From a virus: a DNA stretch of 36,267 nucleotides. The first letter of the stretch is position 1. Each line of letters starts with the position of its first letter. The stretch spans positions 1 through 36,267 of IMG/VR virus record IMGVR_UViG_3300044681_000429; one strand, given 5' to 3'. Below, in pieces: positions 8,518-28,275 of this stretch. The notes under the pieces are model-generated. The model was not told the origin of the DNA, made no database searches, and saw only the letters and a program-made list of their open reading frames with translations. The translations under genes and the position numbers were made by a program.

Positions 8518-9297
8518 TCAGGTCTTCAAAATGTGGTCGATGTATTGGATGGCTTTGTATGATTCGGATTCCGCACCAAAGCCCTTTTGTAATCCCTGTT
8601 CAATGAGGGTTGCCGTGCTGGTTGGTTGCTCTCCTGCTTTGGCCTGTTGCTCGACTTCTTGCTTCTGGACTCTTTCGGCAAGAGTTCGAGCTTCCTTGCC
8701 ACGCAGCTCCCGGCCCAACTCACTCCTTGCCTGTGTTTGAATGGCTGCTTGGATATCGGCAACACTGGTTGGCTTGTAAACTCTTCCCTCGCCGGGAAGC
8801 ATTCTTGCACGTGAAGCAATGATCGGCAGTACGGCGCGCCAGGTTCGACCCTCAACATTTGCGGAATAGAGAACGCTCGAAAAAGCTTGAAGCTCTACGT
8901 TGCCCACCAGGTTTGGATCAAGGCGTTGATTCTTGCTAATAAGTTTCATTTCCTTAAACCTGTCCACGTACTGTTGCCGAACGTTGAATGGGAGTTGCAG
9001 CCATTCGTAGCGAATATCGGAATCAAGGTATTGTTCACGAACCGTTCCGTCCGGCCTCATTTCCGGACGACCACCTTGATCCACCAAACCGCGACCCTCA
9101 TAGGGTGTTAGATTCGAAACGCCCATTCCGCCACTGACATCACCGCGCACGAGGCGGGGCGGCGGTGTGTAACCCGGAGGAAGTTGAATGGTGCTGGATG
9201 GAAGCGTTTGCGAAACTAGGGCTCCAATGTTTGCTGCTTCGACGGCGGCTTCTTCCTCCAGGCTCATGCCCTGATTGTCTTGAGGTTTTGGTGCCAC
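8518..9297 (-). CDS. Putative virion-associated protein, 259 aa, GTG start
   Basis: The start is a GTG at 9297 whose G overlaps the stop of the 1810-aa gene by one base. The first 60 residues are Pro/Gly-rich and probably flexible (IQLPPGYTPPPRLVRGDVSGG). The middle part contains YEWLQLPFNVRQQYVDRFKEM and VELQAFSSVLYSANVEGRTWR, and the C-terminal third is a charged helical region with several QxQxxxE repeats. No enzyme motif found. Its coupling to the giant upstream protein suggests the two act in the same virion substructure. Confidence 0.55.
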   Translation of the reverse strand: MAPKPQDNQGMSLEEEAAVEAANIGALVSQTLPSSTIQLPPGYTPPPRLVRGDVSGGMGVSNLTPYEGRGLVDQGGRPEMRPDGTVREQYLDSDIRYEWLQLPFNVRQQYVDRFKEMKLISKNQRLDPNLVGNVELQAFSSVLYSANVEGRTWRAVLPIIASRARMLPGEGRVYKPTSVADIQAAIQTQARSELGRELRGKEARTLAERVQKQEVEQQAKAGEQPTSTATLIEQGLQKGFGAESESYKAIQYIDHILKT

Positions 9298-12200
9298 TAT
9301 TGCTCCATCCCGGCTGGATCTGTTTCTGACGACAAAAGATTATCGTACAACCTTTCGAAGGACTTGTTTTGGCGAGCTAGCTCCTCGCCAATTGAGTCAA
9401 GCTTCATCCTAAACGGAGTTGCCGCTTTGCTGCGGAACGTAGACATACCAAGCTTTTTCATCTCCGTGAGGAATGCGTCGCGGTACGTCATGTACTGCCT
9501 AAGTGGATTTACCAACTCGCTGTCGGCAAAAGAGCCCTCGTCCAAAATAAGCCTGAGGGATTTGATGTTCGTCTCAAAGTCTTCAGTGGCGTACTTCACG
9601 GCCACGAAACCGCGATATCGCTTGTTCAGGTCTTCTCGGACGGCCCTCAATTGATCTTGCTGCTGACTGTTCAGGAATGTTGGTAGTCGGTTGCGGATGT
9701 ACCGGTAGAACGACGAACCGACAACATATTGTGCCGCCAAAACGCGCTCCGAAACATTGGCATATCTGGCTTTGCCGCCTTGCAGGAGATAACTGCGGAC
9801 TCCAAACTCGTATTCACTTACGTCTTCTTGTGGTCCAAAAAAGTGCGCAACTGATCCACCATATTTGTCAATGGTGTTTTGATTTTGTTTGAGCCAGCCA
9901 AGATATGCGGGAGTGTAGAGAATCCCCCTTGCGTCTTTGGACATCTGGAGTTTTCCAGAAAGAAAGATCAAAGCTTCTTCCCCAAAGGTGTCGACCCAAC
10001 GCAACGCTGCGTCGCTTGGGTCCATGTCTCGCATTTTCTGTAGCTCTGCAGCCATTGAACCCATGTGTATGTCCATGCCATCAAGGGTCACAATGTAGTC
10101 CGGGTTGGCCGATGCGGGTCCGGAAAATGTTGACAGTGCACCAAACATGTACATGGTTAAACCAAGCTTGGCCGCATCGTCTTCCAGTTTTTTCAGTCCG
10201 TCCGCCGTGTTTGTATCGTATTTTCCGGTTAGGTGAAGTGCTGCGCCAGCATCAAGTATTTCTCGCTTAATTGCATCGCTTCTATTTCCAAACGCCATTG
10301 CATTAATTCCGTTTAGGGTTTTGTACATCCATGCCGGAAGGAGTTTTTCTGCAGTGGTTTTTTCCGCCTGCAAAGATTCGAATGGCAACAGGGTCTTGCG
10401 CAACTCGATAAATCCCGTCGAGTCTTCCCCAACAAAAGATTGCGCCAGATCGAGCACTTTTCCAATTCCCACCTGGCCCAATGGGTTTGCTTGTGGAACG
10501 CCAACAAGACCAATGTTTAGACCCTGCACCTGTGATTCCAGTATCGGGGTAACGGCACCATCCGTTTGTATATCCGTAAATAGATTGGTGGCGGTTTTGC
10601 TCAAGAATCCAAACGGGTGGCGAAATACGTATTTCCCGGTTACGGGGTGAACGTAGACGATTCCTCGTTCGGTGTCTCCGGGCAAATCAAGATCCATGGT
10701 TCCATTGATTGCCCTTCCCACTCGATAAACTTTGTCCGGTCTTAGGGCGGCCAACCTGGCCATATCCGTCATAATGATTCTGGTTGCCGCAATGAACTGG
10801 AACAATGCCGAAACGCCGGCAGTGGTTTCGAAGTTCAGTTTTTGCGGCAGGTCGTAAAACAAATTCCTCATTCGTTTTTCAGCGAGAGCTGCGGCAAAGT
10901 TGTCCATATCCTCAATCGAATAGCCGGCTTTGAGGGCATTTGTGGATTGCCCAAGTTCTTTTAGTTTTTTGTACCTACCGGGAATGCCGCCCATGTAATT
11001 GTCGTAGGACATTCCTATTGCATCTGCCTCTGTTTTGATGCGTCGAATTGCGTCTTGGATAGCTACGCCGGAAAGGGAGTCGTAGTACTCTTCGTAAATA
11101 GACCATTTGAACTGACGAAACGCCGGCAATTTTTCTAGCGCGTTTACACCCCTGCCCATTTTGCCAGTGAAAATGCTGTCAATGAAAGATCTCCACTGCG
11201 CACGCAACCCGGTAATGTCCCTGGCAACACGCGTGTACGAAGGAAGGGTGGCTGGAAAAGCTTTTGCAACTGCGGGATCGGTGCTGGACAACATCTGTCG
11301 AACAACGTTTTCCATCTCTGACGCAAAACCTTCTCTTCTGGGTGCCCATCCGGTCATGAACTCAAAGTTTCTGCCCTTGTCCCAGCCATCTCTTGCAACC
11401 GTTTCCAACTCGATTAACTTGGCATTGACAACACCGCCCTTGGGGCCACTGCGAACCACGTCGTCAATGTAAAAAGCTTGCCCGGTTGCGGGGTTGTAAA
11501 AGATTCCGCCAATGATGTTTTCGTTGGCTGGTTTATCACCCCAGGCCCAGTCTTCTACTTGTTTAAGGAAATTCTTGGTTACGCGTTCGGTGCTTACAAC
11601 GGCCCTATTGTTGGGCCCCAGCTTTGGAACAGCGTTTTGCGCAAGCATTGGCCGCAGTTCTGGAACGGTCGACAGTTTTTCTACTCTTCCGCGAATCTGG
11701 GTTTCAATTGTTCCTCGCAGAAAAGATCGGCGTTGGGCCCTATTGCTTAAATTCATTTTTGCCAAAGCCTGTGCACCGATTGGATAATCGCCAATCTTTT
11801 GTCCGGGTCCAACAGTTAAGCCATAATCCTGCACCATCTCCAGCATCCTGCTTTGCACATGGGCGCCGGCATCGCTCTTGTACAAATACTCCATTGCGAT
11901 GTCGATCTGCCTGTCCACCGGAAAATGGCTAATTCTGGAAAGCAGGGCCTCCAGTGGATCTGCATGAATTTTGCGAATGGCATCAAAAGCAGCAGTGCTG
12001 TAGGCAGAAATGCTTGCTTTGTTGATGATCTCGACCTGTCCGGTTTTGACAAGGTTGGTTAGTGAATCAAGAAAGGCATTTGTGTAGCCCCAACTTGATG
12101 CGCTGGTGACGCTAACAAGATTCTTTTCTGCGGGAGTTAGTTCATCAAAGATTTTAATAGAAATATTGTCAAGCTCGTCTTGGGTCATGAATCGACCGAT

Positions 12201-20520: not shown

Positions 20521-20527
20521 ACTTAAG

Positions 20528-20556
20528 TTGCAAACCCAAAAACAACCTGCTACGCT
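20528..20556 (+). promoter_or_regulatory. Plus-strand promoter-like sequence, TTGCAA-17-TACGCT
   Basis: TTGCAA (20528-20533) and TACGCT (20551-20556) are separated by exactly 17 nt, and TGC precedes the -10, giving the same extended form seen in minus-strand elements. It points away from the packaging genes towards 20600-21200, where no plus-strand gene is credible. It could make a short non-coding or antisense RNA over the 118-aa gene, or be chance. Confidence 0.3.
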
Positions 20557-20861
20557 CTGAGCGCCACGTCGAGAGACGCGCACAACACCCAAAGAATACG
20601 GACCCTAAACGGTTACATTCCTCCTCGCTTGCAACAGCCAGGGCAGCATGGTTAGACCGCACGGGATTAGTGGCCTGAAAAGGGGACCGATGATTGTCGT
20701 CTTCTTTCGGTATTCAGACAGACGGGTTCAGACGTAAAACAGAACTTGGGGGGGCTTAGAACTGTTGCGACCGGATCCAGCGACGAAGATGCCCATCGCA
20801 AATACGCCAACGGTTACGAGGGGCGGATAGATAAATATTAACCCTCCCCTCTCCCACGGTG
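20557..20861. other. Intergenic stretch with no gene recognised
   Basis: About 300 bp between the plus-strand promoter-like sequence and the stop of the 118-aa gene. I found no credible ORF on either strand and no tRNA. On the minus strand, just after the 118-aa gene, GAGGGG and CCCCTC could pair across an AT-rich loop (around 20818-20852), a weak terminator candidate. A run of seven G residues lies near 20747. Confidence 0.4.
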
Positions 20862-21218
20862 CTACCTGCTCTTAAAGCCTTTGCTGCCCTTGCCCCGAGT
20901 GCGCTCAAGGGACCGACGACGCTCCTTCTCTATGCCCTGCTGGATATTTTGCAAAATATCCTCCTGCTTTTGATACGGGGTCTTCCACTCCTCAAGCTTC
21001 TTCGCAGAAGGCTTCTTCATGTCTAGAGCCAAAGTTCGCTTAACAACAAACTCAAGAGCTTTGGACGGAGCAGCAGTAACCTCCTTCATATAGCCACCGG
21101 CAATGGCAGCCGACTTGGCAATCTGCTGAAGGGCATAACTGTAGCCCTTGGCCTTCTTGCCGCTTGCGCGCATGTTCTTCTCGAAGTCGTCGTATGGATC
21201 ATTGAGTCCTAGAGGCAT
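20862..21218 (-). CDS. Hypothetical basic helical protein, 118 aa, leaderless
   Basis: Start chosen at the ATG at 21218 (MPLGLNDPYDDFEKNMRASG); the longer frame to 21440 runs into the GC-rich repeat block. No Shine-Dalgarno is present, but TACACT lies exactly 7 nt before the ATG, which fits a leaderless transcript. The protein is helical and basic, with KGYSYALQQIAKSAAIAGGYMK in the middle and a C-terminal KERRRSLERTRGKGSKGFKSR-like tail rich in Arg/Lys. It is the first gene of the packaging side after the GC-rich island. It could be a small terminase-type or other DNA-binding protein by position, but no family is recognised. Confidence 0.6.
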   Translation of the reverse strand: MPLGLNDPYDDFEKNMRASGKKAKGYSYALQQIAKSAAIAGGYMKEVTAAPSKALEFVVKRTLALDMKKPSAKKLEEWKTPYQKQEDILQNIQQGIEKERRRSLERTRGKGSKGFKSR

Positions 21219-21225
21219 GTCGAAG

Positions 21226-21234
21226 AGTGTAGCA
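21226..21234 (-). promoter_or_regulatory. Promoter of a leaderless gene, TGCTACACT
   Basis: Minus-strand TGCTACACT with -10 TACACT at 21226-21231, 7 nt from the ATG at 21218. This spacing puts the transcription start at or next to the A of the ATG. A TTGCAA (21247-21252) lies 15 nt upstream, shorter than ideal for a -35. The same 7-nt geometry recurs at 33427. Confidence 0.5.
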
Positions 21235-21300
21235 GAGTGCAAACATTTGCAAGCACCCCGCAAACAAAAATGAACACACAGATCTGGGGTTATAGATGTA

Positions 21301-22197
21301 TTAGGGGGGGCCTGCCGCGGCACACCCCCGGCTCGAGCTGGCGACGAGCTGGCAGCTTCGCCCGGTTGCGAATGGGGCGTGGGACACCGGGCGAGTGTGC
21401 GAATGGGCGAGGTGCTCCCCGGGTGGGAGCTGCTCGGCAACTCGAACCCGTATGTGCCGGCGTGGCGTGCCTTGCTCGGAATACGGCCGCGTTGTTTGTC
21501 CGGACATTTGCCGGAGAATGTACGGACATTTGCCGGAGAGCTCTACCCGGGCGACATCGAGCACGCTCCCGGAGAGCTCCCGGCGAGCTGCTCGAGTCGC
21601 CCCGGGCGACCTCGAGCTCGTCACCGGGAGCGAGCTCGAGCTCCCGGGCGTTCTGCCGGGGACGAGTCACCGGGGACGAGCTGCCGGGACGCTCCCGGCG
21701 AGCTGCCGGAGAGCTCCCGGTGACATCGAGCTCGAGCTCCCGGGGAAACTGCCGGAGAGCTACCGGGGCGTTCCCGGTGACCTCGAGCTCCCGGGGACGA
21801 GCTGCCGGGGAGCGAGCACCGGGGCGACATCGAGCACCCGGGAGAGCTGCCAGGGGAGCTGCCAGGGGAGCTGCCAGGGGAGCTCTCGATCCACCGGGGA
21901 GCTACCGGGGCGACATCGAGCTCGAGCACCCGGCGAGCTCCCGGTCGTGCTCGAGCACCGGGAGCGCTCGAGCGTCCCGGAATAGCCCGCACCCATCACC
22001 CCGCCCGGCGAGTTTCGAGAGCTCCTAGCGGCTCCTATTGCGTGGTTTCCGCCGGGTCGAGCCCATTCGAGCCCATTCGAGCTCGAGCACCGGGAGCTCG
22101 AGGGGAGCCCGCCCGGTGGAAGGAGCCACCACCACCGGGCGGGACATGGGGACGAGCTCGAGGGAGTCGAGGGAGCTCCCCCGAGCTCGCGGCCGTA
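21301..22197. repeat. GC-rich, palindrome-saturated repetitive block without credible genes
   Basis: Some 900 bp built from permutations of GAGCTC, CTCGAG, CCCGGG, CCGGGGAGCT and GCTGCCGGG. In 21601-21660 alone I count three GAGCTC, two CTCGAG and two CCCGGG. GACATCGAGC recurs near 21553, 21722, 21825 and 21912. A 12-bp unit, GAGCTGCCAGGG, repeats three times at 21844-21882. Long open frames exist on both strands, but they encode only Arg/Gly/Pro/Ser/Glu-rich low-complexity peptides with no start signals, as expected for GC-rich DNA. It follows the last gene of the island operon. Role unknown; recombination-prone or protein-loading DNA, or decayed sequence, are possible. Confidence 0.6.
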
Positions 22198-22734
22198 TCA
22201 CCCAGGCGCGTCGGCTCCGAGCTGCTTCCGCATGGCGCGGAAGGTTTCGGCGTGCGTCGCCACGCGCTCGAGCTGCGCGGTGAGCGGGGAGTCCGGGGCG
22301 ACTATGCCCTCGCCGCACTCGGTCACTTCGGCAAGGCTGCCGAGCTCAACCGCCCGGGCTCGGAATACCGGGTGCTCCTCGAGCGTCACCGCCACGGAGA
22401 GCGCTATTTCCCGGCGCTCCGGGTGCTCGCTCGGTGGGTGGCTCGTATCGGGAGCCGCCGACGCTTCGCACACCACCACGAGCGCCGCCACCCGGTCGAA
22501 CCTCGAGCGGGCGAGCACTCGAGCGGAGCCCTTCGCCACGGCGGTGCGATAGTCCGGGGCTTCGCCTACGACCTCGAGCTCGAACTCGCCCGCCTCGAGC
22601 GGAGTAACCGCGAGCACTCGCACCGGGAGAGTCGAGCGGGCTCCCGCCCTCGAGCGCCGGGCGCGTTCGTTCGCCTGCTCGAGTGTGAGCCGCTCGAGCT
22701 CGAGCACGAGCGGGCTCGAGTTGTGCGCGTTCAT
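22198..22734 (-). CDS. Unknown protein, 178 aa, last gene of the MoxR-VWA operon
   Basis: ATG at 22734 overlaps the stop of the 30-aa gene (ATGA). The N-terminal 40 residues form a charged helix (LELERLTLEQANERARRSRAG). The rest alternates beta-like and helical stretches, including LPVRVLAVTPLEAGEFELEVV, a Val/Ala-rich VAALVVVCEAS strand and a Ser/Pro/His/Glu segment. No catalytic motif or membrane segment is visible, and I do not recognise a family. Codon use is extremely GC-rich and biased to GAG, CTC and CGG, like the rest of the operon and unlike the phage genes outside. By position it belongs to the MoxR-VWA system. Confidence 0.6.
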   Translation of the reverse strand: MNAHNSSPLVLELERLTLEQANERARRSRAGARSTLPVRVLAVTPLEAGEFELEVVGEAPDYRTAVAKGSARVLARSRFDRVAALVVVCEASAAPDTSHPPSEHPERREIALSVAVTLEEHPVFRARAVELGSLAEVTECGEGIVAPDSPLTAQLERVATHAETFRAMRKQLGADAPG

Positions 22735-22823
22735 AGGTCGCCCCCCATCTCGCCCGCTATCGCGGCGGCGATGAGCGCGCCGACGATAACGAGCGCCTGT
22801 GTGAGCTGCGGCTCGTCGTTCAT
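22731..22823 (-). CDS. 30-aa single-pass membrane peptide in the MoxR-VWA operon
   Basis: A very short gene whose ATG (22821-22823) overlaps the stop of the VWA gene by 4 nt and whose own stop overlaps the next ATG by 4 nt, so both ends are coupled. It encodes an acidic N-terminus followed by one hydrophobic helix (ALVIVGALIAAAIAG) and an acidic C-terminus. The precise ATGA overlaps at both ends are the main argument that it is real. A small membrane anchor or regulator for the ATPase-VWA pair is a reasonable guess; too short to assign to a family. Confidence 0.55.
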   Translation of the reverse strand: MNDEPQLTQALVIVGALIAAAIAGEMGGDL

Positions 22824-24295
22824 TCTGTCCCCCCTTCGGGTACTAGTCCCTTGTTCTCGGCAACCCGGGCGAAGCGCTCGGAGTTGGGCGGGCGAACCTT
22901 GCCCCGCCGTAGATCGTCGAGCGCCGCTAGTGCGTCCTCGACATCGAGCTCTATTCGGGCTCCGTAGTGCTCGGCTACCTTCCGGCACTCCTCGAGCACC
23001 TCGAATGTCTGCCCGGTATGCCCTACCGCTTCGCAATCGGTCACCCACAGGATGGGAGTGCGCGACCGGGCGAACTTACGCACCGCCCACACGAAGGCGG
23101 GAGCGTCCACTCCGTTACCGCCGGAATAGCGCTCGATTTCGCGCACTCGTCGCCCTCGGTGGGCGAGTAGCTGCGTGTTTGGCAGCGTGTCGTTGTGTGC
23201 CGAGTATCCGACGACGGTAGCGCCGGGTGAAGCGTCGAGTATCTGCTCGAGGTCGTTCGCGCTCAGGCTCATGCTGCCGCTCATGTCCACGACGACGAGC
23301 GCCCTAGTGCCTCGGCTCATTCTCGAGAACACTCGCCGCTCCGGGTCGGTAATGAGCCGGGAGAGATACCGGGGAGCCTTCCCGGTAAGGGTTGCCGTCC
23401 TCGAGCGGCCGCACCGCCCGGTGTGGGCGATAGGTCGCTCTGGCTCTATCGGAACGAGCTTGTTCCACCTCGAGTACCGCACCATGCCGGAAGGCGGCTC
23501 ACCTCGAAGGGTTGAGCCCTTCGGCTTCGCTGCCTCGAGTCGAGCCTGCTCGACCTCGCGCACCTTGCGAGAGTTGAGCGCGTCCTCGGCGGCTCCCTTG
23601 CCTAGTTGTGCGGAGTACTCGAGCGCCGCTACTGCGAGGTCATGGGCGACCATGTGCGGAGCCGACACCCGGAGCTTCTTCGATGTCCCGCCCGGTGTCT
23701 TAATCCGTAGCGGGACACACTTCCGGAGTGCGCTCGGGTGCGCCCAATGCTCTAGGGCGTGCTGCTCGACCCGGAGCGCTCGGAGCGCGACGCGGTAGTC
23801 ACGACCGAGCGCCCGCTCGTATGTCTCGAACGCTGCCCGGTCGTCCATGAGCGCGAGTACTTCGAGCGCTATCCGGTGGGCGGGTACTGTCTCCGGTAGC
23901 CCTTGCGCCTGCGCCTCGAACGCCCGGGCGTGCTGCCGGGCGAGTACCGAGGGGACGACCGGGAGCTCGAGCGCCTCGCCGTACACACTCCGAACGGTTG
24001 CCCGGTTGCGTGCGTCGGTTGCTGCGTCCCACACCTCGAGCCGCTCCCGGTCGCTCGAGCCGAGGGAGCCGAGCCACCGGGCGGGCGTGCTTCGTCGTTG
24101 TCTGCCGTTGTAAGTTCCGGCTACTAGGGCGAGCAACCTCGACACGCGGGCGGTCGGGTCGTCGGTGTCGTGGTCGGCTCGAGTTATCCCCCGGAGCGGG
24201 TCGGCTCGTAGCTCGCCGTGGAGCGGGGAGCCCTCGAGGTGCTTCCACCTCGAGCGACTCCCCGCCACGAACTCCGGGCGTGGCTTCGTGGTCAC
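22820..24295 (-). CDS. CobT-like VWA-domain protein with intact MIDAS, 491 aa
   Basis: Starts at a GTG (24295) overlapping the ATPase stop (GTGA). Residues 1-320 are helical and Arg-rich. The C-terminal von Willebrand A domain starts near 330: TRALVVVDMSGSMSLS carries the MIDAS DxSxS (D337, S339, S341); GGNGVD (392-397) and WVTD (D420) provide later metal-site positions. In MoxR-VWA and CobS-CobT pairs the VWA protein binds substrate through a metal ion while the AAA+ ATPase remodels it. The gene directly upstream is such an ATPase, so the pair probably forms one complex. The long helical N-terminus may define the target. Codon use is very GC-rich compared with the flanking genome. Confidence 0.8.
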   Translation of the reverse strand: MTTKPRPEFVAGSRSRWKHLEGSPLHGELRADPLRGITRADHDTDDPTARVSRLLALVAGTYNGRQRRSTPARWLGSLGSSDRERLEVWDAATDARNRATVRSVYGEALELPVVPSVLARQHARAFEAQAQGLPETVPAHRIALEVLALMDDRAAFETYERALGRDYRVALRALRVEQHALEHWAHPSALRKCVPLRIKTPGGTSKKLRVSAPHMVAHDLAVAALEYSAQLGKGAAEDALNSRKVREVEQARLEAAKPKGSTLRGEPPSGMVRYSRWNKLVPIEPERPIAHTGRCGRSRTATLTGKAPRYLSRLITDPERRVFSRMSRGTRALVVVDMSGSMSLSANDLEQILDASPGATVVGYSAHNDTLPNTQLLAHRGRRVREIERYSGGNGVDAPAFVWAVRKFARSRTPILWVTDCEAVGHTGQTFEVLEECRKVAEHYGARIELDVEDALAALDDLRRGKVRPPNSERFARVAENKGLVPEGGTE

Positions 24296-25005
24296 GGCTG
24301 CGCCGCGTTCGCGAGTTGTGCCGCCGCGAGTATCTGCTCCCGGTGCTGCGGCACGACTATCTCGAGCGCCCGGTCGAGTCCGTGGACTGCTGCCACCCGG
24401 GCGACAGTCTCGAAGGCTCGAACACTTGCCCGGTCGTCGGGCTCGGCTTCGGCTCCGAGTGTCCGGGCGATGTCGCGCAAGTAGTCCGGGAGCTGCTCGA
24501 GGGCGTGCGGGTGAACCTCGTCAATGCGTACCCGAGCCGCGAAGCGGTCGAGGAGTGCCGGGTCGAGGTCGTTCGGCTCGCCGTTCATCGTGAGCACGAC
24601 CGAGAAACCCGGGGCAGGCTTCACGATCTCATGCGTGACCGGGTGCTCCCACGAGCTCGAGGCGGTGGTGTCGGTGAACGCTAGGAGAAGGCTCATCACA
24701 TCGCCGTTAGCTCGCGCCACTTCGTCCACTACGAGCCGAGCACCTTCGCGCCATGCTCGCACGGCTACGCCTTCCCGATACTCGAAGCCCTCAGAGGACG
24801 GATAGAACGCGCCTTCTATCTGCGCGGTCGTCATCTCCTCGGAACAGATGAGGCGGTAAGCCGGGCGACCTTGCGGGGCGCTCGTCAGTCCGTAGTAAGT
24901 TTTCCCGGTTCCGCTCGGGCCGAATAGTAGTACTCGGTCAATGCCTGCGGCCTCGAGGTCGGCTACTGCGCGCCAACACTCGGGGAGTGTGTTCGGTTGG
25001 GTCAT
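24292..25005 (-). CDS. MoxR/CobS-like AAA+ ATPase, 237 aa
   Basis: ATG at 25005 with the leader GAAGGAGCTAGAACA. Walker A is GPSGTGKT (29-36), followed by an EEMTTAQIEGAFYP segment typical of MoxR/CobS ATPases, Walker B LVVDE (91-95) with VARAN, and sensor 1 and arginine-finger region VVLTMNGEPNDLDPALLDRF (136-155). It is short, essentially the AAA+ module plus a small helical lid. Members of this family work as hexamers with a VWA partner to insert metals or remodel proteins. The VWA gene overlaps its stop by 4 nt. In a phage the substrate is unknown; host takeover, virion maturation or defence/counter-defence are all open. Confidence 0.85.
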   Translation of the reverse strand: MTQPNTLPECWRAVADLEAAGIDRVLLFGPSGTGKTYYGLTSAPQGRPAYRLICSEEMTTAQIEGAFYPSSEGFEYREGVAVRAWREGARLVVDEVARANGDVMSLLLAFTDTTASSSWEHPVTHEIVKPAPGFSVVLTMNGEPNDLDPALLDRFAARVRIDEVHPHALEQLPDYLRDIARTLGAEAEPDDRASVRAFETVARVAAVHGLDRALEIVVPQHREQILAAAQLANAAQP

Positions 25006-25211
25006 TGTTCTAGCTCCTTCGTTGTTGTTGTTGTTCCCCCGAGGCGGTCGCCCCGGGTGACTGCGTGGCGGCGTATCGCTGCGCGCCGCCTATTGTTGAG
25101 CGCTCGCTCGCGCTCGAGTAGCTCGAGCCCGAGGCAGAAGCCGAAGCACGCCCCGAGTACTGCGCCGACGATAAACACGACGAGTGGCAAGTGCGTAGGG
25201 AAACTAAGCAC
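25002..25211 (-). CDS. Small single-pass membrane protein, 69 aa
   Basis: ATG at 25211, overlapping the end of the 204-aa gene by 8 nt; its stop overlaps the ATPase ATG by 4 nt. Residues 8-30 form one hydrophobic segment (LPLVVFIVGAVLGACFGFCL) followed by a basic cytoplasmic-type region rich in Arg and a run of Thr residues encoded by ACA/ACC repeats. The ribosome-binding site of the ATPase gene is embedded in its 3' end. With the 30-aa peptide, it makes two predicted membrane proteins in one operon, suggesting the ATPase-VWA complex acts at the membrane. No family recognised. Confidence 0.6.
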   Translation of the reverse strand: MLSFPTHLPLVVFIVGAVLGACFGFCLGLELLERERALNNRRRAAIRRHAVTRGDRLGGTTTTTKELEQ

Positions 25212-25818
25212 GAGCCCGCCGCCTTGCCATGTCGAGGAGCGCCTCGAGAGTCTGACGCAGGTCGTCGGGAGTGTGCTCGTTCTCGAGTAGCTCCGTGCCG
25301 TCGCCCGCGTTGCTCGTCATCTCTCCGTCGTCCTGTCGTTGGGCGTTGGCTGCGATGATGAACGGCTCGCCCGCTTCGGCGCCCGCTTCGTCGGGCTTCA
25401 CGCCACCCATGAGAACGATGACGGCGAAGGGTCGCCCGGCTTCGTTCGAGACAATGCGGAACAATGCGAGAAACTCGTCCCGCTTCGATGGGAGATACCG
25501 GGCTAGTGCGTCGGTCGTATTGCCTCGACAAGTGAAGTGTTCGGAGAGCTCGACACCGCCGAGTTCTCGCTCGCCGCTCGAGTCTCGAGTGTCGGCTCCG
25601 AAGCTATGGAACACGACCGAGCAGAAGTGAACCACCGGGGCTGCCGTGTCCGGGTCGTCGGCGTTCTCGAGTGCGTTCTCGAGCACGCCCCGGGCGATGA
25701 GCTCGACCACATCACACACCGAGTTAGTGGCGGGTAGGTCGTCGGGTATTGCCGTGGCGAGCAACTCGTCGGCTATGCGCCGCAGGTCGTCGGGGTCGTC
25801 GGGTATGCGTGGGTTCAT
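25204..25818 (-). CDS. Unknown acidic protein, 204 aa, first gene of the MoxR-VWA operon
   Basis: ATG at 25818 with an AAGGAG site 9 nt upstream. The protein is acidic, with an N-terminal helical region (DPDDLRRIADELLATAIPDDLP), a central VVHFCSVVFHSFGADTRD and PFAVIVLMGGVKPDEAG that look like core beta strands, and a C-terminal acidic and Arg-rich helix. I recognise no family. It is the promoter-proximal gene of the GC-rich operon, and its 5' leader closely resembles that of the YqaJ exonuclease gene 4.7 kb upstream. Function unknown; a specificity or sensor component of the system is a guess from position only. Confidence 0.6.
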   Translation of the reverse strand: MNPRIPDDPDDLRRIADELLATAIPDDLPATNSVCDVVELIARGVLENALENADDPDTAAPVVHFCSVVFHSFGADTRDSSGERELGGVELSEHFTCRGNTTDALARYLPSKRDEFLALFRIVSNEAGRPFAVIVLMGGVKPDEAGAEAGEPFIIAANAQRQDDGEMTSNAGDGTELLENEHTPDDLRQTLEALLDMARRRARA

Positions 25819-25822
25819 GGTG

Positions 25823-25868
25823 TCTAGCTCCTTCGTTGTGTGTATTCGGGTCGCCTTCCACCATAGCG
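25823..25868 (-). promoter_or_regulatory. Promoter and leader of the island operon, shared with the YqaJ gene
   Basis: On the minus strand, CGCTATGGT (25860-25868) carries a TATGGT -10, followed by a leader containing GACCCGAATAC and AACGAAGGAGCTAGA. The 42-nt stretch 25828-25869 matches the leader at 30501-30542 at 34 positions by my alignment. The 17-mer TCTAGCTCCTTCGTTGT (plus strand, 25823-25839) is repeated exactly at 25009-25025, before the ATPase gene. No clear -35 is visible. Confidence 0.5.
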
Positions 25869-26197
25869 GGCGCTCGGCGTGGGGTGGTGGATACCTCGGA
25901 GCCGCCTCGGAGCCGCCTCGGAGCCGCTTCGGAGCTTGTCCCCCGGCTCCCCCGGCTCCCCGGGCTCCGGGTCGAAGGACTCCCGGCTCGAGTTTCCCGG
26001 GTGATCGTGGCTCGACGCTCCCGGGTGATCGTGGCTCGACGCTCCCGGGTGATCGTGGGGAGCGCGCTCGAGCGCTAACGAACTCGACGAGGCGGGAGCG
26101 ACGACGAAGCGGGCGGAACTACGCGCCGGGCGAAGCAAGTACCACTAGCGGGACTTGCCGAAACTCGATTTCGACGAACGGACACACCCTGTCTCGC
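25869..26197. repeat. GC-rich tandem repeats upstream of the island operon, no credible gene
   Basis: Two short tandem arrays: a 12-bp unit CTCGGAGCCGCC about 3.5 times (25894-25935), and CCCGGGTGATCGTGG three times with a 24-bp period (25996, 26020 and 26044). Between them lies CCCGGCTCC-type low-complexity DNA. A minus-strand frame through here encodes HDHPGASS repeats, but it would overlap the promoter and has no start signal. The rest, 26059-26197, shows nothing I can identify. Confidence 0.55.
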
Positions 26198-26247
26198 AGT
26201 GCTAGCACTACGCACGCATATGGCATGAAGTGATAGCACTACGCACG
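26198..26247. repeat. Two 19-bp direct repeats, operator-like, at the island edge
   Basis: AGTGCTAGCACTACGCACG (26198-26216) and AGTGATAGCACTACGCACG (26229-26247) differ at one position and are 31 bp apart, three helical turns. The first contains the perfect 12-bp palindrome AGTGCTAGCACT. They lie between the 39-aa gene and the GC-rich island. Spacing and symmetry suggest a pair of protein-binding sites facing the same side of the helix, or a remnant of an insertion junction. Confidence 0.5.
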
Positions 26248-26251
26248 GTTG

Positions 26252-26371
26252 CTAGACCAGCGGCTTGAGTCCCATCTCTTTGCGCCAGATGTTTAGCACG
26301 AGTGCATAGTCCTCGTCGGTGATGTATGGGTTATTGCAGGGGGCTTTGTCAAACTCCGGGTGTTGGGTCAT
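26252..26371 (-). CDS. Small acidic hypothetical protein, 39 aa
   Basis: ATG at 26369-26371 overlaps the stop of the 83-aa gene by 4 nt (ATGA). The product begins MTQHPEFDKAPCNNPYITDE and ends in a helical MGLKPLV tail. The start overlap and normal codon use make it credible despite its size. It is the last gene of the early-type cluster before the GC-rich island. No family recognised. Confidence 0.5.
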   Translation of the reverse strand: MTQHPEFDKAPCNNPYITDEDYALVLNIWRKEMGLKPLV

Positions 26372-26619
26372 TTGCTCCATCCTAGGTTCGATGCGCGCCA
26401 TACGGACGGTGAATGGTTCGCCTCGACTGCTCGTTCGTGTTCTTCGTCCTCGTACAAGCGTACTAAGTGCAGGCAGGGATCACCACCATCGAGCTCGGAG
26501 TCCTCGAATATGGAGGTGGGTAAACCGTCGTGCGTGTAACAAACGGGTGGCGAACAGTAGCCGTTGCGATAACCGTATTCGAGCCATTCGTCTAGGTCGA
26601 GGTGAATGGACATCTTCAT
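26368..26619 (-). CDS. Conserved actinophage protein, 83 aa
   Basis: ATG at 26619 after GGAGAG. The sequence LDEWLEYGYRNGYCSPPVC then YTHDGLP, GGDPCLHLVRLYEDEE and EANHSPSVWR is one I know as a widespread family of small actinobacteriophage proteins without assigned function. The order W-x2-YG, C-x4-C, HDG, DPC and SPSVWR is complete here, so the gene looks intact. Cys residues at about positions 22, 27 and 49 could bind metal. Overlaps both neighbours by 4 nt. Confidence 0.7.
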   Translation of the reverse strand: MKMSIHLDLDEWLEYGYRNGYCSPPVCYTHDGLPTSIFEDSELDGGDPCLHLVRLYEDEEHERAVEANHSPSVWRASNLGWSK

Positions 26620-26747
26620 CTGCTCTCCATCTTTTGTGGATTTGAACCATGGGACTTAGGGTTTTTGCATATTGGCAAATCGGAAGGCTTGACATGCAGG
26701 ACTATGGACGATCCGCACTTGGGGCATGTGTAACGTGTGCCCTTCAT
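26616..26747 (-). CDS. Zinc-ribbon mini-protein, 43 aa
   Basis: ATG at 26745-26747 overlaps the upstream TGA, and its own TGA overlaps the next ATG, so both junctions are coupled. The protein has YTCPKCGSSIVLHVKPSD then LPICKNPKSHGS: a CxxC pair, then Cys and His about 20 and 27 residues on, which reads as a small zinc ribbon. I recall similar Cys-Pro-x-Cys-Gly mini-proteins in actinophages, probably nucleic-acid or protein adaptors. A longer frame at 26656-26841 in another phase is a shadow of this gene and its neighbour. Confidence 0.6.
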   Translation of the reverse strand: MKGTRYTCPKCGSSIVLHVKPSDLPICKNPKSHGSNPQKMESR

Positions 26748-26920
26748 ACGACATCCCATCTTGCTTGCGAAAAACCCTTGACCATATTGTTCTCAATGTA
26801 AACCCACGTTGGTGCATCAGGGTCGCAGTTGCATCCAGCAATGCGTCGTGGTTCTGCAGTCACGGTCGTATCGCACTTCAGGCACTTCGCTTTTTTTGTT
26901 TCGGGTTTTTCCTCTGCCAT
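26744..26920 (-). CDS. Small Cys-containing protein, 58 aa
   Basis: ATG at 26920 with GGAGG close upstream; the 77-aa alternative from 26977 would overlap the preceding gene much more. The protein begins MAEEKPETKKAKCLKCDT and continues RRIAGCNCDPDAPTWVYIENN. CxxC and CxC pairs could form one zinc site. The C-terminus is FSQARWDVV. It overlaps the following zinc ribbon by 4 nt. No family recognised; intact. Confidence 0.55.
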   Translation of the reverse strand: MAEEKPETKKAKCLKCDTTVTAEPRRIAGCNCDPDAPTWVYIENNMVKGFSQARWDVV

Positions 26921-27063
26921 CTGTCCTCCGATGCATTGAGTTTGCCCTGCCGGTATAGGTGACACCGGCAAGGGCAACTACTTTCTATTTCCTTGGGCCA
27001 TTTGGCTAATGCTTTTTCTATGGTGCCGCAGTGATCGCAGCTGTAATCAGAAGGGTTCTTCAT
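26878..27063 (-). CDS. Small Cys-rich protein, 61 aa
   Basis: ATG at 27063, 17 nt inside the end of the preceding gene and without a good ribosome-binding site; its 3' end overlaps the next gene by 43 nt. The product contains YSCDHCGTIEKALAKWP then SSCPCRCHLYRQGK: CxxC followed by CxCxCH, a likely zinc site. The basic C-terminal tail (RKNPKQKKRSA) lies in the overlap. The unusual overlaps lower confidence, but the two Cys clusters argue for a real protein. Confidence 0.45.
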   Translation of the reverse strand: MKNPSDYSCDHCGTIEKALAKWPKEIESSCPCRCHLYRQGKLNASEDRWQRKNPKQKKRSA

Positions 27064-27268
27064 CGAGGGTCGGTGCAGACTGCTCCGGTTCCTCTTCGCT
27101 GACTTCCCACAACTGTGCGTCGTCGAACTTGGCTGCTCGCTTGACGAGCCACACCTCTTTCGTTTCTCCGCTCTTGTTGGTTACTTCCACCTGGTCACCG
27201 ATCATGCCCTCGTGGCGTATCTTCACGCCCCAAGAACCTGACTTGAGTTTGTACCACGTTGCTGACAT
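27047..27268 (-). CDS. Small conserved phage protein, 73 aa
   Basis: ATG at 27266-27268 overlapping the previous stop by 1 nt (TAATG). A beta-rich N-terminal part reads MSATWYKLKSGSWGVKIRHEG then GDQVEVTNKSGETKEVWL, of a type I remember from short actinophage proteins thought to be OB- or SH3-like. The C-terminus is acidic (EVSEEEPEQSAPTLDEEPF), reminiscent of ssDNA-binding-protein tails. Function unassigned. Confidence 0.55.
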   Translation of the reverse strand: MSATWYKLKSGSWGVKIRHEGMIGDQVEVTNKSGETKEVWLVKRAAKFDDAQLWEVSEEEPEQSAPTLDEEPF

Positions 27269-27446: not shown

Positions 27447-27719
27447 TTACAGGCTATCTCTATCGAAATGTCGGCGCAAGGGTTTGCGTTGTTTGGGTGT
27501 AGCGCCACCCCAAATACCGTAATCAATCTCGTTGACAATGGCAAACTCTAGGCAATCCTCTTTGACCGGACAGTCTTTGCACAATTTCAGGGCCAGCTTG
27601 GACTCGGTATCGTACGACACGTCGGGGAAAAAATTGACGCCATCAACGTTGCGACAAGCTGCCTCGTCCATCCACTTAAAGTCCTGCATCACCAAGGCAA
27701 AATCGCTTAACAGCTGCAT
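27447..27719 (-). CDS. WhiB-family iron-sulphur transcriptional regulator, 90 aa
   Basis: WhiB proteins hold a 4Fe-4S cluster with four Cys and bind RNA polymerase sigma factor. Here the four Cys fall at 22, 47, 50 and 56 (AACRNVD, then LCKDCPVKEDC), followed by the GIWGG turn at 68-72 and a basic C-terminal KQRKPLRRHF DNA-contact segment. I chose the ATG at 27719, just after the upstream gene's stop, with a G-rich ribosome-binding site; the longer frame to 27776 would only add translation inside that gene. WhiB is restricted to actinobacteria and their phages, so it is the strongest host indicator in the window. It likely retunes host or phage transcription. Confidence 0.9.
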   Translation of the reverse strand: MQLLSDFALVMQDFKWMDEAACRNVDGVNFFPDVSYDTESKLALKLCKDCPVKEDCLEFAIVNEIDYGIWGGATPKQRKPLRRHFDRDSL

Positions 27720-27723
27720 GTAG

Positions 27724-28275
27724 TCATACCCCCCATGGTTGCCAACCGTTGCCGTTTGTTTCCTGTGCGTAGTCATAGATTGCCTTTGCTGCTACGAGGT
27801 TGTTGAAAGGATCGAACAACTCTTCACATCCAACATTACGCAATATGCCAATGGTTTGCAAGTATCCACCCGGATACCACCTAGTCGGCATACACCAAGA
27901 CCTATCGTTTACCTGGGTCAGGCCAATGTCCGTTGACTTGTCCCTGTTCAAGGTCTTGTTGTGCTGGGCTGGGTCACACCTGGACTCGCGCCACATCACG
28001 TAGTCGAGAGTCTCCATATGCTCCGGTTGCCAGCCGGCCCGGGCAGCTAACCCCCACCATTGACCACACCGAGCCGTGGGCGGAATATGGGCTATGGCAG
28101 TCGTGGTGGGGGTAGCCGCCGGCTCAGGCATGGCCTGAGACGCGATAGGAAGCGATATGAGCGTAGTTATGGGGCGGGGGGTAGGGGGAGTGGGGGTATT
28201 GGCCTCTTGTCCACCAAGCACAAACAGTGCGAAGGTGGCAGAGACAAGGGCAAAGATTCTTGGCAACCATTCCAT
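27724..28275 (-). CDS. Secreted lytic transglycosylase/lysozyme-like protein, 183 aa
   Basis: ATG at 28275 after AAAGGATC. The N-terminus has a hydrophobic segment (RIFALVSATFALFVLGG, residues 6-22) suited to a signal peptide or anchor, followed by a Thr/Pro-rich linker to about residue 65. The SLT-type domain has WRESRCDPAQHN with the catalytic Glu at 97, then DIGLTQVNDRSWC (117-128) and FDPFNNLVAAKAIYDYA near the C-terminus, ending GWQPWGV. Such enzymes cleave the peptidoglycan glycan strands. It lies 4 kb from the M15 endolysin and next to WhiB, so it may serve a role outside final lysis, such as wall remodelling or entry. Confidence 0.8.
   Translation of the reverse strand: MEWLPRIFALVSATFALFVLGGQEANTPTPPTPRPITTLISLPIASQAMPEPAATPTTTAIAHIPPTARCGQWWGLAARAGWQPEHMETLDYVMWRESRCDPAQHNKTLNRDKSTDIGLTQVNDRSWCMPTRWYPGGYLQTIGILRNVGCEELFDPFNNLVAAKAIYDYAQETNGNGWQPWGV

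Follow-up and report, generated by a model that had tools for sequence, protein, structure and literature searches.

A swapped accessory MoxR-VWA gene cassette in a variable slot of uncultivated phages, with a possible role in phage-host conflict

The virus record IMGVR_UViG_3300044681_000429, analysed here over its whole length of 36,267 nt (the window), carries a minus-strand operon of six genes (25818-22198) built around a MoxR-class AAA+ ATPase and a protein with a von Willebrand factor A (VWA) domain. We found this operon to be an accessory cassette, swapped as a unit in a genomic slot where related phages keep anti-restriction genes. MoxR-VWA pairs are common in uncultivated phages. Its place in this slot makes the cassette a candidate AAA+ machine of abundant phages in phage-host conflict, with counter-defence or host takeover as our best single, still tentative, guess. 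A preliminary description of the locus, made from its letters, had reported six overlapping genes; all six open reading frames (ORFs) are present on the minus strand, with junction overlaps of 8, 4, 4, 4 and 4 nt from the first to the last, as read from the sequence.

A NorQ-like ATPase and its VWA partner

By its sequence, the ATPase is a NorQ/CbbQ/midasin-like member of the MoxR class. It matches AAA_5 (PF07728; E=1.2e-16), and its matches in the PDB include midasin (E=5e-25), NorQ (E=7.5e-13) and CbbQ (E=8.9e-9), all of them AAA+ modules that work with VWA domains and their metal-ion-dependent adhesion site (MIDAS). The Walker A and MIDAS motifs pointed out in the preliminary description are both intact: residues G29, G32, G34, K35 and T36 of the former are invariant in the MoxR alignment (A1), and D337, S339 and S341 of the latter, together with D397 and D420, are invariant across 56 aligned VWA proteins.

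The VWA protein matches phrog_33218 (E=3e-49), while a Pfam scan returned no family or domain for it. An AlphaFold (AF2) model built from the 56 sequences (mean predicted local distance difference test score, pLDDT, of 79) places a predicted VWA fold at residues 325-467, preceded by a helical part, with structural matches of Z up to 8.4. A chain of the NorQD complex was among these matches at a middling Z of 6.5, and a Foldseek search with the full-length model gave nothing below E 0.001. Judged from this modelled fold, the intact MIDAS and the adjoining MoxR gene, the protein is a MoxR-associated partner.

The two putative membrane peptides of the operon each have one hydrophobic stretch, with 17-residue Kyte-Doolittle maxima of 2.6 and 2.3 for the 69-aa and the 30-aa protein, respectively. 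In the 69-aa protein, hydropathy reaches 2.63 at residue 11 and the tail has a net charge of +4. Counterparts of both, of 57-60 aa with the same layout and of 25-29 aa, occur in four other loci (L069, L070, L084 and L090). As to the two flanking proteins, that of 204 aa exceeded the cut-off of no Pfam, PHROG, NCBIfam or PADLOC family, and neither it nor the 178-aa protein contained an effector, VMAP or STAND domain in Pfam, NCBIfam or PADLOC; both change too fast for sequence search.

The cassette recurs in other phages

Profile scans of viral contigs recovered 80 MoxR loci and 19 VWA loci, on contigs of up to 170 kb. MoxR and VWA genes are adjacent in every complete locus, and next to the pair one repeatedly finds small transmembrane (TM) peptides as well as a third protein, which bears out the earlier proposal of a dedicated module rather than a chance cluster. 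In the nearest relative, L084, all six genes recur in this order, with lengths to match: a 182-aa protein, a 57-aa TM protein, MoxR (63% identical), the VWA protein, a 29-aa TM peptide and a 154-aa protein. The order is therefore not due to chance, and the flanking genes do recur at other phage MoxR-VWA loci, an observation on which the preliminary description had staked its idea of a dedicated system.

Small phages of the window's kind have at least two cassette layouts. One, found in the window and in L084, runs 204-TM-MoxR-VWA-TM-178; the other runs MoxR-VWA-TM-TM and ends in a third protein of about 300 aa (e.g., in L069, L070 and L090). Third proteins are the fastest-changing part of the cassette and fall into several groups not joined by sequence profiles: those of nine loci align as a single family, to which the remaining ones could not be joined by sequence. 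A profile comparison of the 204- and 178-aa proteins with the third-protein family of other loci likewise gave nothing. For the third protein of L069, a model predicted from nine alignment rows (mean pLDDT 75) combines a helical bundle with an alpha/beta part; its fold matches were generic coiled coils and were not used.

Searches of 50,697 phage records returned 11 matches to MoxR, at 26-33% identity, and no match to the VWA proteins of the window, L070 and L112; that of L112 had no match in plasmids either. A single genome-contig scan for a bacterial relative gave one 18-residue match, in a Clostridia metagenome-assembled genome, which we took as chance.

The operon occupies a variable slot

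Relatives identified by their terminase are collinear with the window on either side of a variable stretch (about 20756 to 27100), and the operon lies in this slot, between WhiB/lysin genes and the terminase gene. Of the 51 distinct slots that were resolved, 13 contain MoxR, consistent with the accessory module that had been surmised, and it is missing from every resolved slot among the window's closest kin by terminase (88-92% identity). Between L070 and L088 both flanks are 91% identical and the cassette about 68%; the cassette has therefore been exchanged as a unit. A chimeric assembly is ruled out by independent contigs that repeat the operon in the same slot with collinear flanks.

A different module, made up of small genes that frequently lie on the opposite strand, fills 27 of the 38 MoxR-less slots and none of the 13 MoxR slots (Fisher p=5e-6; because the contigs are related, slot p-values overstate independence and are indicative only). 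ArdA was detected in six MoxR-less slots (E=2.4e-18, confirmed by anti-restriction PHROGs). C5 methylases lie at 18 of the 38 MoxR-less slots and 2 of the 13 MoxR slots, and N6/N4 methylases are found at the slot as well. These anti-restriction neighbours extend the preliminary description, as does the palindrome anomaly reported below.

On the terminase side of the slot, many relatives share a non-coding stretch (window 20525-20756) at 79-89% identity, including those with a terminase identity of no more than 72-73%. It is possibly a packaging or regulatory site; it had no Rfam or tRNA match.

Candidate functions of the cassette

In NorQD, a finger of the VWA protein sits in the ATPase pore, and an acidic patch of the membrane target is the proposed binding site of the MIDAS (PMC9976466; PMC13036017). 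By analogy with NorQ-NorD, the MoxR ATPase of the cassette would form a ring and the VWA protein would dock on it. If the NorQD mechanism carries over, the MIDAS metal would grip an acidic residue of a target protein, and ATP hydrolysis would then pull that target. Placement of the machine at the membrane and its adaptation to the target would fall to the pair of single-TM peptides together with the divergent unknown proteins; it is the TM peptides that suggest action at the membrane. Like NorQ-NorD and CbbQ-CbbO, the cassette comprises a small MoxR ATPase gene adjoining a VWA gene, whose product has an intact MIDAS and a separate N-terminal part. Unlike these systems, it is phage-borne and adds TM peptides and unknown proteins to the pair; genes for nitric oxide reductase or Rubisco were not recognised near it, and its VWA protein is unmatched outside the core.

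Given that ArdA and DNA methyltransferases are found in this slot in relatives, and that the cassette is exchanged there as a whole, we suggest that the machine would most likely be directed at some host function, with a membrane target in defence or takeover as the probable one. The same two features, slot neighbours and cassette swapping, make counter-defence or host takeover by an accessory remodelling cassette the best single guess, although one we hold with clear reservations. Several points weigh against it. Guilt by association cannot tell counter-defence from phage exclusion or a metabolic role; ArdA is by itself too few, occurring in six slots only (p=0.32); and C5 methylases adjoin both kinds of slot, with none seen in the window by motif scan. 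PADLOC models gave no match, the best being IetA with 15 bits over 31 residues around the Walker A motif, though PADLOC covers defence and not counter-defence.

MoxR-VWA proteins may alternatively act as chaperones that build or mature the virus particle, as proposed for the published viral pairs, those of group 2.2 jumbo phages and of Acidianus two-tailed virus, in the latter for tail growth (PMC7824862). The operon genes adjoin those for terminase and portal on the same strand, and the pair also occurs in large phages (contigs of up to 170 kb), both of which would fit such a role. We nevertheless consider it unlikely, as 38 of the 51 collinear relatives, including the nearest kin with 88-92% identical terminases, have no MoxR in the slot, and the cassette was swapped while its flanks stayed 91% identical. 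Moreover, jumbo-phage VWA proteins are fused to an N-terminal metallopeptidase, whereas the 56 VWA sequences show no HExxH-type column among their invariant positions and no conserved peptidase motif was found. The published pairs share with ours a virus-encoded MoxR adjoining a VWA protein; ours differs in being accessory and swapped, in residing in small actinophages and in carrying membrane peptides. The preliminary description's 'candidate undescribed phage system' is thus upheld as a conserved module and not as a new kind, viral MoxR-VWA pairs being already known and the present cassette differing as a variant.

A module for phage exclusion or conflict inside the infected cell, with the third protein as effector, would resemble the cellular ternary MoxR-vWA conflict systems, whose effectors diversify (PMC7159879). 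Both VMAP/iSTAND systems and the present cassette combine MoxR, vWA and a divergent third component, and the fast-changing third proteins with their several profile-unjoinable groups would suit this idea. Those systems are known from multicellular bacteria, however, and ours from phages; the window's MoxR scored below the cut-off of bpMoxR PF20030 (16.8 bits vs 27), and the 204- and 178-aa proteins yielded no effector domain, which together render exclusion improbable. Nor did these two proteins show a VMAP or STAND domain, although their fast change limits what sequence search can reveal. We attach still less credence to an auxiliary metabolic gene, a metal chelatase of the CobS/CobT type by which host cobalamin would be raised or metal loaded into a host enzyme. 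Phage CobS/CobT (phrog_249) likewise join an AAA_5 ATPase relative to a VWA partner, phrog_249, annotated 'porphyrin biosynthesis', is matched by MoxR proteins that phages of this group encode (E=6.8e-15), and CobS/CobT are named as auxiliary genes in several phage papers. Here, however, the midasin and NorQ matches were stronger, and cobaltochelatase identity gained no support from NCBIfam, whose cobaltochelatase and chelatase models all stayed under cut-off (Cob-chelat-sub, 13.6 bits vs 779). The scan of window proteins turned up neither CobN nor a cobalamin gene, in a record that may be incomplete; the cobaltochelatase with a cobalamin locus, which the preliminary description had weighed against its own proposal, was accordingly not recovered.

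Cassette DNA has an anomalous palindrome usage

The cassette forms a sharply bounded island (about 21300-26240) of 63-71% guanine-cytosine (GC) content, against 50-55% outside. Among the 16 four-base palindromes, TCGA occurs there 95 times where 14 are expected (6.7x), AGCT 54 times (3.8x) and GGCC at 0.1x of expectation, whereas none of ACGT, TGCA, AATT, ATAT and TATA occurs; usage in the flanks is close to normal. The six-base CTCGAG occurs 50 times (1.7 expected). This bias spans coding and non-coding cassette DNA: in the 3' non-coding part (21300-22197), TCGA, AGCT and CCGG number 23, 31 and 39 vs expected 2.3, 2.3 and 14.

Palindrome usage of this rich type was found in fourteen small-phage cassettes, and the favoured motifs differ among sister cassettes. 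In L069, TCGA is at 10x and GATC at 6.7x of expectation and CCGG is absent; L087, L088 and L121 favour CGCG/GCGC, and TCGA is not enriched. Another group (L074, L076, L078, L105 and L163) misses 8-12 of the 16 palindromes, beyond what their flanks miss. Rich islands have a root-mean-square Z of 4-11 for palindromes vs 2.4-4.6 for other 4-mers, both being near 2 in the flanks. A single palindrome exceeded Z 8 in 102 of the 1,314 scan windows close to MoxR, compared with 10 of 3,255 elsewhere; these ten belong to three contigs, two of which (L060 and L032) have the same slot without MoxR.

Codon usage accounts for part of the enrichment and not for all of it: VWA genes of TCGA-rich islands exceed synonymous shuffles (z about 3-8), and enrichment is about tenfold in non-coding cassette DNA. 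Sister cassettes keep their TCGA density while the sites turn over: L069 and L090 have 39 TCGA sites in common, a further 58 and 27 that are not shared, and differ at 46% of four-fold sites. The GC content of islands correlates with that of their flanks (r=0.88), from which it is offset by +0.08 on average. In non-coding DNA, the spacing of TCGA sites hinted at helical phasing at 11 and 22 bp, without reaching significance (p=0.10 at 11 bp). Nor was the favoured motif consistently linked to a neighbouring methylase: a C5 methylase lies beside L070, L086, L087 and L088, and a DPPY-motif protein, with no Pfam or PHROG match, beside L069, L090 and L167, while the window showed neither.

The pattern itself is a robust observation; readings of how it arose are tentative. 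Quite possibly, and compatibly with any function of the cassette, it is donor-genome composition left by transfer, without functional meaning. Most rich islands exceed their own flanks in GC, cassettes are swapped among phages (L070/L088), and the island of L060 is equally TCGA-rich; because L060 is without MoxR, the pattern is not tied to MoxR-VWA itself. Opposed to a simple donor relic are the tracking of flank GC, the turnover of sites at constant density in L069/L090 and the enrichment above synonymous shuffles and in non-coding DNA; no donor was found, in searches that stopped short of an actinobacterial donor search. It seems a long shot that this all-or-nothing usage, in which a few palindromes are saturated and others erased, is actively maintained and part of the mechanism. 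The DNA would then act with MoxR-VWA either to counter or to exploit restriction-modification or some other host system that reads palindromes. Whichever applies, the palindrome usage of 4-5 kb of a phage genome departs from that of the adjoining DNA, and the sign of the departure is reversed from one sister cassette to another. Were this usage maintained, it would show that short palindromes can come under selection or mutation in a single cassette and not across a whole genome.

Three further patterns were noted. The palindrome-rich MoxR-less slots, L060 5300-8900 (TCGA) and L032 5000-8000 (ATAT), hold opposite-strand genes, including one for a GP88-family protein in L060. L112 and many large-phage contigs are almost devoid of TCGA over 10-13 kb including MoxR-VWA and have about twice the expected number a few kb downstream. 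In L070, the non-coding DNA after the cassette (8690-9420) repeats a CTAAGTCGATTAGA-like palindrome several times.

Genomic setting and feature coordinates

The 36-kb record, possibly a fragment, is not closely matched by any entry of the phage collection. Family scans recognised terminase, portal, major head protein, a RecE-like exonuclease and lysozyme-like proteins in the window. A WhiB-like protein (27447-27776), identified by reading its cysteines, points to an actinobacterial host. Coordinates of the operon and its surroundings are collected in Table 1.

Table 1 Positions of the operon genes, motifs and island parts in the window
Feature	Position	Strand	Basis
204-aa protein, unknown fold, first operon gene	25204..25818	-	ORF; 182-aa counterpart at the same place in L084
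69-aa single-TM protein, GTG start, basic C-terminal tail	25002..25211	-	ORF; hydropathy
MoxR-class AAA+ ATPase, 237 aa	24292..25005	-	AAA_5; PDB matches
Walker A GPSGTGKT, residues 29-36	24898..24921	-	Sequence
VWA-domain protein, 491 aa, helical N-terminal part	22820..24295	-	phrog_33218; AF2 model
MIDAS motif DMSGS, residues 337-341	23273..23287	-	Sequence; homologue alignment
30-aa single-TM peptide MNDEPQLTQALVIVGALIAAAIAGEMGGDL	22731..22823	-	Sequence; Shine-Dalgarno-like AGGGGGG
178-aa protein, unknown fold, last operon gene	22198..22734	-	ORF; 154-aa counterpart in L084
3' non-coding part of island	21300..22197	.	Dense in TCGA/AGCT/CCGG
5' non-coding part of island	25822..26110	.	24-bp tandem repeat x2.7 at 25995-26058
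Whole GC-rich cassette island in variable slot	21300..26240	.	GC, palindrome usage, slot comparison

Just upstream of the operon, GTGCGTAGTGCTA is present twice, 31 bp apart (window 26202-26245), in an operator-like arrangement. The same operon-upstream border carries different short repeats in L084 and L069.

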